A DNA stretch of 44,017 nucleotides from an uncultured Bacilli bacterium. Its GTDB lineage: Bacteria; Bacillota_I; Bacilli_A; RF39; UBA660. The stretch is taken from NCBI GenBank assembly GCA_947623735.1, contig CANQHE010000006.1, forward strand, positions 1 through 44,017. Direction: 5' to 3'. Shown here piece by piece: positions 9,620 to 30,029 of this stretch. The notes under the pieces were generated by a model. That model was given only the letters and a program-made list of their open reading frames with translations, had not been told where the DNA came from and did not search any database. Made by a program: the position numbers and the translations under genes. Numbering within the stretch: position 1 is the first letter of the stretch; the number at the start of each line of letters is the position of its first letter.

Positions 9620-11647
9620 TTAATCAGTTACTACTATATAAGGATTAGTTCTTGTTCCTGAATCTCCTTCACCATCAACTGTAAATTTTGTATCAGCTTT
9701 CAGATTTATTACTGGGCGCACACCAAGGACATGGTTGTACACGAGGGTGTCGTCGAGGTAGCCACTATCAGTCACATAGAACACGCGAGCACTGCTGCCG
9801 CTGTACATGCGAGACGGAGACATTGTCCAATAGTATTGATTTGTATATAACCAATAACCATTATTTGCTTGACCAGCAAATCCTCCGGCATATATTACTT
9901 CATCCATTGTGATTAAACCAACTGGCACTGGTAAGGCTCCATTTCCAGTTATTGTTGTTCCATTACTTCCTTTTGTTCCATTTGCATTTGCACCTGGTCC
10001 GGTATATAAATCTCTTTTTCTTGATGCATCATCTTTACCGCATTTTAATGTAGGTGTTTGTTCAGTTGAATTCCAACTTGTACTATTTGATTGCCATACT
10101 CTATCTGCTCCAGCGTATGCTGTTTGCTGTGTTCCAAAACCTTGTCCTGTTCCGGGATAACTACTTCCATGGTTGGTAGTTGATATTGTTGTATCACTAC
10201 AAAATCCTGTATCTACATCGATGTAATTTGTTGCTAAACTACTTAAATTCGTATTATTTGTATACCAGTTCTCTATTTCGTCTAATACTGTACTTTTTGT
10301 ACTACTACTTGTTACTTTGTGTGCCTGTTCATGACTTGTTGACACTGTTGGATCATTATTATACATATATCCTACATATTTATTATCATTATATTTTTCA
10401 TTAAAATAAACTGACTTTGGATAACTATTATTTGCTGGCGTTCTTGGCGTTATCATTGTATCAGCTCCTTGAGTACTAGGAGCGGTTTTATTACTACTAC
10501 TTGTTCCAGCGTATATCAATCTTATTGTTCCATTGCCATTTATCCGGATAATCCTCCACCATAGATAATTTGCACCACTCTTATCTTTTCCAAATACTAC
10601 CCAGTTATTACTTACTGTTCCACGATAATAATAACTTGTTCCAAAGTCATCTTCTGCTTCATACAAACCATTTTCTGAAACTTTACAGCTTCCGCCACAT
10701 GACGTTCCAGTGAATTTATCTACCTTTCCTTGTGAATCGCCACTTATTCCTAAGTTTGCTAATGTTTGTTTACTAGGATTATATTCATCAAAATATAAAT
10801 AACATTCTGTTCCACTTTGGGTTAAACTTGTTACAAGTAGGCCATTTTTATTATTGTCCCAACTTGGTACTGCTCCATTACTACATTGACTTTCTTTACT
10901 TAAAGTGTAATTTCCCTCTGGTATTGTTTGACTTTCTTCATATTTTCCTGTCTCTTCATTATATACATTAATGGCTAGAATATTTACATCAGGTTCAATA
11001 TTTGATGGTTCTACTGTTACTTCGCCTTCAAATCCATACCCCATATCGAGATTTTGACTTTCATTTAAGTTAGGATATTCTAGTACTACATAATAATACC
11101 ATGATGTTCCTTTAGATGTTGATGTTATAAATTCATTTGATGCTAGTGTTACTGTTATTTCTGAACTATTACCTTTTATTGTTCCTTCACTTATTGATTC
11201 TCCAAGTGATGTTATATTTGATATTTCACACTCTTCATACATCATGATGCCACCTGAAACATTTTTCTTTATTTGATTACAACTTGCATCTACATCTACA
11301 TTATCACTTACTTTGTATACTGTAAATTTTAAATCAGTGTTTAAATTATTTGTTCCCTTCCATACTAAATTATAAGGAATAAGTTCATTATTACCAATCG
11401 CTGTTACAATAATTCCTGAGACATCTTTATGTCCTGGCAACATTCCATCATAATCAAAGTTTAATGTACCTGTTACTGTTACTTTAGAATTTTTTAATTC
11501 AGCTGTTGTGACTGTCGTGGTTGCTCCACTTCCCTCAGTCAGCATTCTTCCGACAAAATAAGCAAAAGTAAAACCACCAAACACTAAAAGTATTCCTACT
11601 AATATTAATAATCTTTTATTCTTTTTCATAACTTTACACCTACTCAT
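9620..11647 (-). CDS. Secreted/anchored surface protein with C-terminal lectin-like variable domain (cassette copy 1)
   Basis: N-terminal hydrophobic segment LLILVGILLVFGGFTFAYF; C-terminal WWRIIRINGNGTIRLIYAGTSSSNKTAPS...YWTMSPS...GVRPVINLKADTKF shared with 27811-29421. True start probably the ATG at ~11629. Confidence 0.8.
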   Translation of the reverse strand: MSRCKVMKKNKRLLILVGILLVFGGFTFAYFVGRMLTEGSGATTTVTTAELKNSKVTVTGTLNFDYDGMLPGHKDVSGIIVTAIGNNELIPYNLVWKGTNNLNTDLKFTVYKVSDNVDVDASCNQIKKNVSGGIMMYEECEISNITSLGESISEGTIKGNSSEITVTLASNEFITSTSKGTSWYYYVVLEYPNLNESQNLDMGYGFEGEVTVEPSNIEPDVNILAINVYNEETGKYEESQTIPEGNYTLSKESQCSNGAVPSWDNNKNGLLVTSLTQSGTECYLYFDEYNPSKQTLANLGISGDSQGKVDKFTGTSCGGSCKVSENGLYEAEDDFGTSYYYRGTVSNNWVVFGKDKSGANYLWWRIIRINGNGTIRLIYAGTSSSNKTAPSTQGADTMITPRTPANNSYPKSVYFNEKYNDNKYVGYMYNNDPTVSTSHEQAHKVTSSSTKSTVLDEIENWYTNNTNLSSLATNYIDVDTGFCSDTTISTTNHGSSYPGTGQGFGTQQTAYAGADRVWQSNSTSWNSTEQTPTLKCGKDDASRKRDLYTGPGANANGTKGSNGTTITGNGALPVPVGLITMDEVIYAGGFAGQANNGYWLYTNQYYWTMSPSRMYSGSSARVFYVTDSGYLDDTLVYNHVLGVRPVINLKADTKFTVDGEGDSGTRTNPYIVVTD
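9714..9822 (-). other. Hypervariable GC-rich segment (DGR-VR-like) in surface protein copy 1
   Basis: 56% GC by hand count over 9721-9820 versus 30-35% in the flanks; aligned to 27905-28012 the core differences fall at codon positions 1 and 2 only. Confidence 0.6.
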
Positions 11648-11787: not shown

Positions 11788-12219
11788 ATGAATTATGGAA
11801 AAGTTCTAGAACAAATAAGAGAAAGAATTGGTTACACTAAAAATGACATAGCAAAACTTTTGAAAATTGATAAAAGCTTATATGGTCGTTATGAAAATGA
11901 AACTCAAACAATACCTTTAAAACATTTAATAACTCTTGCCAATTTTTATAAAATGACTTTAGATTATTTATTTGGCTTTTCTAAAGAAAATAATTACAAA
12001 AGTCCAATTAAAGAACCCGATAAATTAAAGATAGGGAAAAAATTAAAAAGCATCCGTAAATTTAAAAAAATAACCCAAGCAAGTCTAGCATCACTTTTAA
12101 ACACAACTCAATCTGTTATCGCTGATTACGAACGAGGAAGATATTTAATATCTACTGCCTTTTTATATGCTATATGCAAAAACTATAAAATATCAGCTGA
12201 TTATATAATAAATTCTTAA
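11788..12219 (+). CDS. Double helix-turn-helix (two XRE/Cro-CI-like domains) regulator, cassette copy 1
   Basis: ERIGYTKNDIAKLLKIDKSLYGRYE and KKITQASLASLLNTTQSVIADYERGR; paralogous to 29583-30029. Confidence 0.85.
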   Translation: MNYGKVLEQIRERIGYTKNDIAKLLKIDKSLYGRYENETQTIPLKHLITLANFYKMTLDYLFGFSKENNYKSPIKEPDKLKIGKKLKSIRKFKKITQASLASLLNTTQSVIADYERGRYLISTAFLYAICKNYKISADYIINS

Positions 12220-27810: not shown

Positions 27811-29421
27811 TTAAGATGTTTGGACTACGTATGGATTAGTTGTTGTGCCTGCTGGTTTATCATTATCGAAGGTAAAGGTTGTATCAGCTTTGAGATTTAT
27901 TACTGGGCGCACACCATTATAGTTGTTCACGAAGCCGTAGCCGAGGAGGCCACTATCATACACATAGAACACGCGAGCATCGCTGCCGCTAAAGTGAGAC
28001 GGAGACATTGTCCAATAATACTGATTTGTATATAACCAATATCCATTATTGGCTGTTCCATAAAATCCTCCCGCATGTATTACTTCATCCATGGTGATTA
28101 AGCCTACTGGTACAGGAAGTGCATTATTTCCTTCTACTTTTCCATTACTTCCATTTGTCCAACCACTCGTTGCACTTGGATCTGTATATAAATCTCTTTT
28201 TTGTGCTTCTGTCTTAACTTCTTTTGTACTTAAATCTACTCCACACTTGAATGTAGCAGTTTGTTCATCTGTATTATAACTAGTACTATTTGCCTGCCAT
28301 ACTTTTTCTGCTCCATATACTGTTGCTGTACTTCCATAGCCCAAATTTTCTGTTCCTGAATAAGTACTTCCATGAGGATTTGTTGTATATGTTCTATCTC
28401 CGCAAAAACCTGTATCTACATCTATTTTAGTTGATAAATCTCCTAAATTTGTTTTATTTTCATACCAATATACTATTTCTTGTAATACTCTACTTTGTAC
28501 ATCAGATTTATGGGCTGTATCATAACTTGTACTTGCAACTCCATTTGCTCCCCCATACATATATCCTACATACTTATTATCATCATCATTTGTATTAAAT
28601 CTTACTGATTTTGGATCACTACTAACTGCTGGCGTTCTTGGCGTAATCATTGTATCTACACCGGTTGGACTTGGAGCTGTTTTATTACTACTACTTGTTC
28701 CAGCATAGATTAATCGTATTGTTCCATTTCCATTTATGCGGATGATTCGCCACCAAATATAATTACTGCCTTCTTGTCCAAAGACTACCCAGTTATTTGT
28801 TCCACTTTCTTTTCCTCTATAATAATAACTTGTTCCAAAGTCATCATTTGCTTTACATATCATGGCATTTGTACTCTCTACTCCTGGTATTTTGTCAACT
28901 CCATCTGCACTTGCTTCTGGACAACTTGCATTTATTGTAGCATTCCCAAGTAATGTTTTACATGTTGTATCTCCTTCTTCACATAAAGGTGGTAAACTTT
29001 CTTCAAAATACAAATGACATTTAGTTCCTTTTTTACTATATGGACTTACACTTATTGTTTTACTTTCTTTATCAAAATTTATTGTTAAACTTTCATTCTT
29101 TACATCTTCAAAACTATTATCTTCTTTTGTATACTTCTCCGTACAATAACTTTTTTCTTCATTTATAACATAATTACCATCTTGTATCTCATTTACAACT
29201 TGATAATCACTATCACTTAACCCCTTTACTCTTATTTCTACCAATTCAAAATCAACTAATGTATAGTTAATTGTCCCAGTGGCTAGTTTTCTACTTTCTA
29301 CTAACTTATACTTTGCTCTTGTAAAAAATAAATTTATTACTATTACTAATATAAATGCTATTACAAAGCCTATTAATATTCCCTTTTTCCCATTTACATA
29401 ATTTATTTTCTCAAACTTCAA
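27811..29421 (-). CDS. Secreted/anchored surface protein with C-terminal lectin-like variable domain (cassette copy 2)
   Basis: N-terminal hydrophobic GILIGFVIAFILVIVINLFF; C-terminal WWRIIRINGNGTIRLIYAG...YWTMSPSHFSGSDARVFYVYDSGLLGYGFVNNYNGVRPVINLKADTTF, paralogous to 9620-11647. Confidence 0.8.
   Translation of the reverse strand: MKFEKINYVNGKKGILIGFVIAFILVIVINLFFTRAKYKLVESRKLATGTINYTLVDFELVEIRVKGLSDSDYQVVNEIQDGNYVINEEKSYCTEKYTKEDNSFEDVKNESLTINFDKESKTISVSPYSKKGTKCHLYFEESLPPLCEEGDTTCKTLLGNATINASCPEASADGVDKIPGVESTNAMICKANDDFGTSYYYRGKESGTNNWVVFGQEGSNYIWWRIIRINGNGTIRLIYAGTSSSNKTAPSPTGVDTMITPRTPAVSSDPKSVRFNTNDDDNKYVGYMYGGANGVASTSYDTAHKSDVQSRVLQEIVYWYENKTNLGDLSTKIDVDTGFCGDRTYTTNPHGSTYSGTENLGYGSTATVYGAEKVWQANSTSYNTDEQTATFKCGVDLSTKEVKTEAQKRDLYTDPSATSGWTNGSNGKVEGNNALPVPVGLITMDEVIHAGGFYGTANNGYWLYTNQYYWTMSPSHFSGSDARVFYVYDSGLLGYGFVNNYNGVRPVINLKADTTFTFDNDKPAGTTTNPYVVQTS
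27905..28012 (-). other. Hypervariable GC-rich segment (DGR-VR-like) in surface protein copy 2
   Basis: 53% GC by hand count over 27901-28000; identical flanks and divergent NNY codons compared with 9714-9822. Confidence 0.6.
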
Positions 29422-29582: not shown

Positions 29583-30029
29583 ATGTATAGTGAAAAATTA
29601 GAATCTTTAAGAACAAGAATCGGTCTTACTCAAAAGGAAGTAGGACAATTAATTAATTTAGATAGTGGAACTTATTGTCATTATGAAAAAGAAGATTTAA
29701 TCATCCCTCTTAAACACTTAATTACTTTATGTAATTATTATGATGTTTCTTTAGATTATATATTTTCTTTTAGCAATAAGAAAAAATACAATAATTTAAA
29801 AACTAATATCGATATAGCAACAGTTGGTAAAAATCTACTTGCTTTTAGAAAAAAATATAAACTAACTCAAGAACAACTTGCTGAAATTTTAAATACTCCT
29901 CACTCAGTGTTATCTGATTATGAACATGGAAAAAGATTAATTCCAACTCACGCTTTATTTGCTATATGCAAAAAATATAAAATATCTGCTGATTATTTAC
30001 TTGGTAGAATTGATAAAAAGCCCTTTTAG
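29583..30029 (+). CDS. Double helix-turn-helix (two XRE domains) regulator, cassette copy 2
   Basis: TRIGLTQKEVGQLINLDSGTYCHYE and YKLTQEQLAEILNTPHSVLSDYEHGKR; paralogous to 11788-12219. Confidence 0.88.
   Translation: MYSEKLESLRTRIGLTQKEVGQLINLDSGTYCHYEKEDLIIPLKHLITLCNYYDVSLDYIFSFSNKKKYNNLKTNIDIATVGKNLLAFRKKYKLTQEQLAEILNTPHSVLSDYEHGKRLIPTHALFAICKKYKISADYLLGRIDKKPF

Follow-up and report, generated by a model that had tools for sequence, protein, structure and literature searches.

Variable repeats of two surface-protein genes in an uncultured Bacilli bacterium are very probably served in trans by a DGR with dispersed template genes

Introduction

The DGR of Bordetella phage BPP-1 (mtd-avd-TR-brt) combines a reverse transcriptase (RT)/Avd pair with a noncoding template repeat (TR) that is followed by a structured RNA, and its mutagenesis falls on adenines (PMC12875486). 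Its single TR lies between avd and the RT gene, and its single variable repeat (VR) is located at the C-terminal end of a C-lectin-type protein. The TR is described as staying unchanged (PMC10907252). Cellular DGRs with dispersed targets, some of which are diversified in trans, have been found in Thiohalocapsa PB-PSB1, in which nine loci of four classes serve 15 targets with 21 VRs (PMC10907252). One RT serves remote VRs in Treponema denticola (7 VRs in several strains), where the single TR is linked to the RT (PMC4891356). VRs are also carried by the DUF6273 domain, modelled as a C-lectin fold, in proteins of gut phages and Faecalibacterium prophages with linked cassettes (PMC10743442, PMC11792537). 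Trans action and several TRs are thus known in small numbers (PMC10907252, PMC4891356, PMC6642488), and the large Roux 2021 survey accepted only RTs with a repeat no more than 1 kb away (PMC8144416).

The system described here shares with the BPP-1 DGR the RT/Avd pair, a noncoding TR with structured RNA behind it, changes at adenines and a C-terminal VR, here in a putatively C-lectin-type protein, and the best PDB relative of its RT is 8ub7, which we take to be the BPP-1 DGR RT complex. In contrast to BPP-1, a dozen autonomous TRs are located far from the RT, and there are about 39 VRs. Each class in PB-PSB1 has one complete RT-TR locus and no TR arrays detached from the RT, unlike the present genome. 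Unlike the DUF6273 targets of phages, the targets here are cellular, anchored surface proteins forming a large paralogous family. No description of detached TR gene arrays was found in the open-access literature searched, which leaves out most subscription papers.

Results

Target genes in the window

The window, meaning the whole stretch of 44,017 nucleotides that was analysed, is contig C6 of a 1.34-Mb draft genome in 77 contigs (91% complete). It contains two target genes, each with a VR at its 3' end (Table 1), the limits of which were set by boundaries common to all related copies. The domain of target gene 2 barely passes the Pfam DUF6273 cut-off (23.6 bits against 23.5). VR1 is a GC-rich segment (57% GC; A18 C34 G28 T28), as opposed to 17-43% GC in most intervals around it. 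The sequences bordering VR1 and VR2, TGGACAATGTCTCCGTCT and GGTGTGCGCCCAGTAATAAATCT, are identical between the two genes. VRs and TRs share the GTGTGCGCCCA end, after which their flanks become VR- or TR-specific: in the alignment of copies, the 3' flank GTAATAAATCTGAAAGC is found in VRs and missing from TRs, which read AATATCCTTTTA at this place. No IMH hairpin was found directly 3' of the VR. The RVT_1 search revealed no RT in the window, and the genome-wide search for TR RNA revealed no TR RNA there.

Table 1. Coordinates of the target genes, variable repeats, flanks and neighbouring regulators in the window
Feature	Position	Strand	Description and evidence
Target gene 1	9620..11647	-	ORF; 675-aa surface protein with N-terminal membrane anchor and C-terminal DUF6273-like (C-lectin type) domain; ORF, domain searches and alignment with 31 further genomic copies
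VR1 (TCTCCG...GCGCCCA)	9713..9820	-	108 nt, at 3' end of target gene 1
Conserved 3' flank of VR1	9690..9712	-	GTAATAAATCTGAAAGC; alignment of all copies; candidate IMH-type element
Divergent double-HTH (Xre type) regulator	11788..12219	+	Pfam HTH_19/HTH_3; 140 bp upstream of target gene 1
Target gene 2	27811..29421	-	ORF; 536-aa surface protein, N-terminally anchored, DUF6273 domain
VR2	27904..28005	-	102 nt, at 3' end of target gene 2
Conserved 3' flank of VR2	27881..27903	-	Alignment of all copies; candidate IMH-type element
Divergent double-HTH regulator	29583..30029	+	Pfam HTH search; about 160 bp upstream of target gene 2

The initial annotation, made from sequence alone, had quoted the codons of a hypervariable segment in target gene 1 and compared them with the paralogue. 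These codons were confirmed on the minus strand, with the VR limits refined to those of Table 1, and so were the identical flanks of the two genes, the location of the core differences at first and second codon positions, the two length differences of one codon each and the absence of an RT or TR from the window. Two of its caveats are resolved. The one-codon indels reflect different TR length classes, and the apparently conserved adenines (e.g., GAT AGT) are either letters of the best TR, that on contig C18, or adenines that were not hit.

Genome-wide copies and target proteins

The VR-like segment has 45 matches in this genome. The lowest DNA E-values are 5.7e-37 (window paralogue) and 1.1e-36 (remaining copies); recurrence on this scale is far beyond chance. 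Thirty-six of the 45 copies are located inside 34 genes, with GGTGTGCGCCCAGTAATAAATCT or something close to it as their ending; nearly all of the encoded proteins have 377-1016 aa with an N-terminal membrane segment. The other nine copies are noncoding, richer in A, commonly contain AAC runs and end in GGTGTGCGCCCAATATCCTTTTA. When the three VRs of the divergent TR on contig C44 are included, TR matches extend to at least 39 VRs, which are spread over about 37 genes for anchored surface proteins.

DUF6273 was matched by 29 of 32 C-terminal domains. An AlphaFold2 model of the target domain was too poor to use (pLDDT 40.5), and a sequence-profile search of this domain against the PDB gave nothing convincing. 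The targets are inferred to be variable surface adhesins or receptors, and the binding of variable ligands is likewise an inference. A domain profile search of the own genome yielded 61 copies in all, about 22 of which are DUF6273-like copies without a detectable template; these may be VRs that have decayed or a pool of paralogues that are not targeted.

A divergent double-HTH regulator is present about 160 bp upstream at 13 of the 27 assessable targets, so it is possible that each surface gene possesses its own HTH repressor. Another divergent double-HTH gene, likewise upstream of a target, was observed at L028 5213-5662. In viral contigs, TR RNA was absent and the target and the RT had distant relatives only; a prophage origin is therefore without support.

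Template repeat units

A genome-wide pattern search for the TR-type ending, which gave no site in the reversed control, located 12 noncoding TRs: five on contig C12, two each on C1 and C10, and one each on C18, C35 and C44. Each TR is a stand-alone, AAC/AAT-rich unit of about 230-290 nt, occurring in tandem or scattered; on C12, four units follow one another with a spacing of 304-316 nt. In the alignment of the 12 units, the template core is preceded by a leader (mostly GGGTTAATCT) and continues into roughly 145 nt of conserved 3' sequence, which closes with a terminator-like hairpin and a stretch of T. Base pairing of the leader with AGATTAATCC in the 3' part forms a terminal stem, and both this stem and the terminal hairpin contain pairs changed on both sides. 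One folded unit was better than 199 of 200 shuffles (z -3.2). The units are thus shown to be noncoding and structured, and no Rfam family matched them. Scans for promoter and terminator consensus sequences did no better than shuffles in such AT-rich DNA, so that the TATAAT-like boxes 5' of many aligned leaders are the sole basis for claiming a promoter.

Most TR sites have a VR gene only a few kb away (C1, C10, C12, C18 and C44), and from this closeness it is conceivable that template and target spread together. Related ORFs were observed beside or between TR units (L028 2973-3911 on C12 and L056 514-1425 on C44). By eye only, they resemble Rpn-type PD-(D/E)XK transposase-family proteins, and a role in TR spread is no more than a possibility.

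Adenine specificity of the differences between templates and variable repeats

Each of 36 VRs was aligned to its best TR with symmetric scoring that does not favour A. Mismatches fell on 512 of 1160 template A (0.44), compared with 136/944 C (0.14), 139/775 G (0.18) and 104/931 T (0.11). By column, VRs differ from the TR majority in 53% of cases where this majority is A and in 7% where no TR has A. VR2 differs from its best TR (C18:147) at 17 of 33 A and 1 of 69 other letters, with one codon deleted, so that one or two sites besides the A differ. A textbook case is the divergent TR on C44 with its own three VRs, in which 18-24 of 37 A and none of 20 G are changed. For VR1, the best TR (C10:19210) gives 21/35 A, 1/27 C, 1/20 G and 5/26 T (non-A 7/73); there is no clean template for VR1 in this draft, and its TR may have been lost in assembly or VR1 may be a mosaic.

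Many VRs carry 5-15 non-A differences from the best TR. Fitting VRs with two TRs removed 83 mismatches, compared with 26 +/- 5 in simulation. Missing TRs, mosaic VRs and the decay of some VRs are all possible sources of the non-A differences. In the sister species G018 (99% complete, 11 templates), the best 12 VRs gave 145/355 A (0.41) and 112/881 others (0.07-0.16 per base; p = 4e-26). The mismatches are strongly adenine-specific in the own genome, in this second species and in the linked DGRs of sister genera.

The reverse transcriptase operon

Only three RVT_1 proteins are present in the genome, on contigs C12, C28 and C57. On C28, which is not the window contig, a MutS-like ORF and an Avd-like ORF precede the RT gene. 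The RT frame is intact (370 aa), with GLPIGNMTSQ and YMDD (GxxxSQ and YMDD motifs), and matches PHROG 1423 (E 2e-82) and, as the best solved relative, PDB 8ub7 (E 5e-29). This RT is of the DGR type as judged by PHROG and PDB matches and by motifs, not by an RT tree. The Avd-like protein matches a PHROG (E 1.5e-14), its NCBIfam match (E 2.8e-9, 37.2 bits) is well under the cut-off of 80, and its score against Pfam bAvd (38.8 bits) falls just short of the cut-off of 40. The MutS-like ORF contains MutS_I (PF01624) above cut-off, a domain also present in the MutS-like protein described as a DGR accessory (PMC10053308). This gene inventory is shown, and no TR was found anywhere on C28.

The C12 RT (L001, 436 aa) was rejected as a DGR RT since it resembles group II intron RTs; it sits on the contig with the five-unit TR set. 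The C57 RT (L005 3430-4542) is a second DGR-like RT, 64% identical to that of C28, at a contig end and adjoining an ABC transporter. Its partner template might be the C44 TR.

The whole-genome search for a DGR RT and a template repeat, proposed in the initial annotation, therefore found both. The claim made there, that the segment is a DGR target on which an RT encoded beyond the window acts in trans, is supported by the RT, Avd and MutS-like genes, the AAC-rich TRs and the adenine-specific mismatches. What was not foreseen is that the TRs are many, autonomous and dispersed, instead of one beside the RT.

Distribution in the genus and sister genera

A covariance model of the TR 3' RNA, used across 36 genomes of the genus, revealed TR units in 32 of them, with up to 25 units per genome; in G030, nine units form a cluster. 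Relatives of the C28 RT occur in 29 of the 36 genomes, and a detectable DGR RT is missing in 4 of the 32 TR-bearing ones. As a separate observation, RT genes with stops occur in G007, G009, G013 and G001, where TR units are kept; there the enzyme decays and the templates remain. For the listed matches in the genus, RT and TR contigs differ. No TR RNA was found in L004, L005 or 22 RT loci of relatives (named gut MAGs), nearly all of which have MutS-like, Avd and RT genes; one of these loci is from Candidatus Caccenecus avistercoris. The genus-wide separation of TR and RT is thus shown.

A TR within about 1 kb of the RT is absent from the genus loci tested and present in sister genera. Matches of the TR RNA model in sister genera are weak but consistent. 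A TR is located beside Avd-RT in G089, G258 and G212; G238 has four TRs in tandem beside Avd-RT, and G139 has one linked TR plus eight dispersed ones. These linked DGRs have TR RNA, Avd and RT homologous to those of the present system, and their TR/VR differences are confined to adenines (22/34 A and 0/71 others in G258), but they differ from it in keeping the TR beside Avd-RT. Because sister genera keep linked TR-Avd-RT cassettes with homologous RNA, the simplest reading, and a likely one, is that the template of a linked cis DGR was multiplied and the copy beside the RT was lost, giving a dispersed trans system.

Variation among the templates

The constancy of TR sequence expected of a DGR is not met here, as TR cores vary at adenines. 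In nine TRs, 25 of 28 core columns with an A majority vary, compared with 7 of 50 other columns (p = 4e-11); in the adjoining RNA flank, used as a control, A columns vary no more than others. Between pairs of TRs, differences amount to 3.9% at core non-A sites, 42% at core A sites and 17% in the 3' RNA. The C12e and C18 TRs have no differences at 48 non-A core sites and 14 at 30 A sites, while their flanks differ by 26%. Only 7 of 82 TR deviations are at third codon positions. The TRs of G018 display the same adenine trend, and those of G015 a weaker one. In G030, A sites vary most (0.39) and G sites also vary highly (0.25), which makes it a less clear case. Two successive TR units in this genome (G030:C20 25035 and 25339, L200) are identical over the stretch shown; the other units of the cluster differ and are poor in A, and the identical pair looks like a recent duplication in an A-depleted template set.

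Discussion

Alternative explanations

Three other accounts of these data can be considered. In cassette gene conversion of the VlsE/PilE type, the noncoding copies would be silent donors and no reverse transcription would be involved. Tandem noncoding copies do adjoin expressed paralogues, VR mosaicism is significant and the TR units are unlinked to the RT, as such a system would have it. However, gene conversion ignores base identity, whereas the mismatches fall on template adenines, and none of the donors accounts for the VR letters at many adenine sites, so that the VRs are not verbatim copies. The donor units also carry a conserved, covarying RNA with a terminator-like hairpin, homologous to the linked TR RNA of sister genera, and RT and Avd are kept genus-wide. 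Gene conversion is thus very unlikely, and as the sole cause it is rejected on adenine specificity. Another account invokes only conserved paralogous DUF6273 domains under ordinary point mutation and positive selection. It finds some support in the roughly 61 domain copies, some 22 of which have no TR match, but the GC-rich nucleotide identity extends to third positions, the differences are adenine-specific against noncoding templates and an RT-Avd operon is present. This account is practically ruled out.

The third account accepts a DGR and attributes the adenine differences among TRs to relaxed constraint, with the scaffold letters under selection and the A sites drifting without any overwriting. 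The low divergence of non-A core sites relative to the RNA flank (3.9% and 17%) is what strong constraint predicts, and canonical TR DNA is reported to be unchanged (PMC10907252). On the other hand, the noncoding TRs show little variation at third codon positions (7/82), yet synonymous change is tolerated, as seen from the other third letters in the C44 TR and its VRs. Moreover, A sites exceed the flank rate (42% and 17% pairwise), and some TR pairs combine 0/48 non-A core differences with 26% flank divergence. The balance tips against relaxed constraint without dismissing it. We infer that the best account of the core variation is recent overwriting by mutagenised copies, since pairs of the C12e/C18 type suggest recent copying of the core alone; this is the least certain step of the present analysis.

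Proposed mechanism

VR1 and VR2 are very probably genuine DGR variable repeats served in trans. In the proposed mechanism, the enzyme would come from the single MutS-like/Avd/RT operon on C28, and about a dozen small TR genes elsewhere would give rise to structured template RNAs. The RT would copy these with errors at adenines, and in about 37 genes, whose products are membrane-anchored surface proteins of the DUF6273 (C-lectin) type, the cDNAs would take the place of the 3'-terminal VRs. Recruitment and priming of the RT are ascribed to the conserved 3' half of the TR RNA, an inference drawn from the BPP-1 spacer RNA. The TR cores may now and then be overwritten by mutagenised copies, so that the template pool would evolve. 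Use of these RNAs by the RT and present-day activity are inferences; the genomes are draft MAGs, one per species, and do not show strain variation or present activity.

Implications

Such a system would escape surveys that demand a TR no more than 1 kb from the RT (PMC8144416). This is a DGR whose hub enzyme stands apart from many autonomous, guide-like template RNAs in small-genome gut Bacilli, with targets far more numerous than in the characterised cases cited. The occurrence of linked, tandem and dispersed templates in one family shows a route from a cis retroelement to one that works in trans. With their minimal size, the TR RNA genes hint at a template format that could be programmed. 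On a bolder reading, towards which we incline by a narrow margin, the detached TR-RNA genes are a heritable library that mutagenised cDNA rewrites, with transfer both from TR to VR and from either kind of repeat into TRs. If this is true, the library would be a pre-diversified template pool usable by any of about 40 surface genes, and the system would combine hypermutation with cassette-based antigenic variation, both run by one RT acting in trans. If the templates are rewritten, the view of the TR as a fixed master copy would need revision for this lineage.
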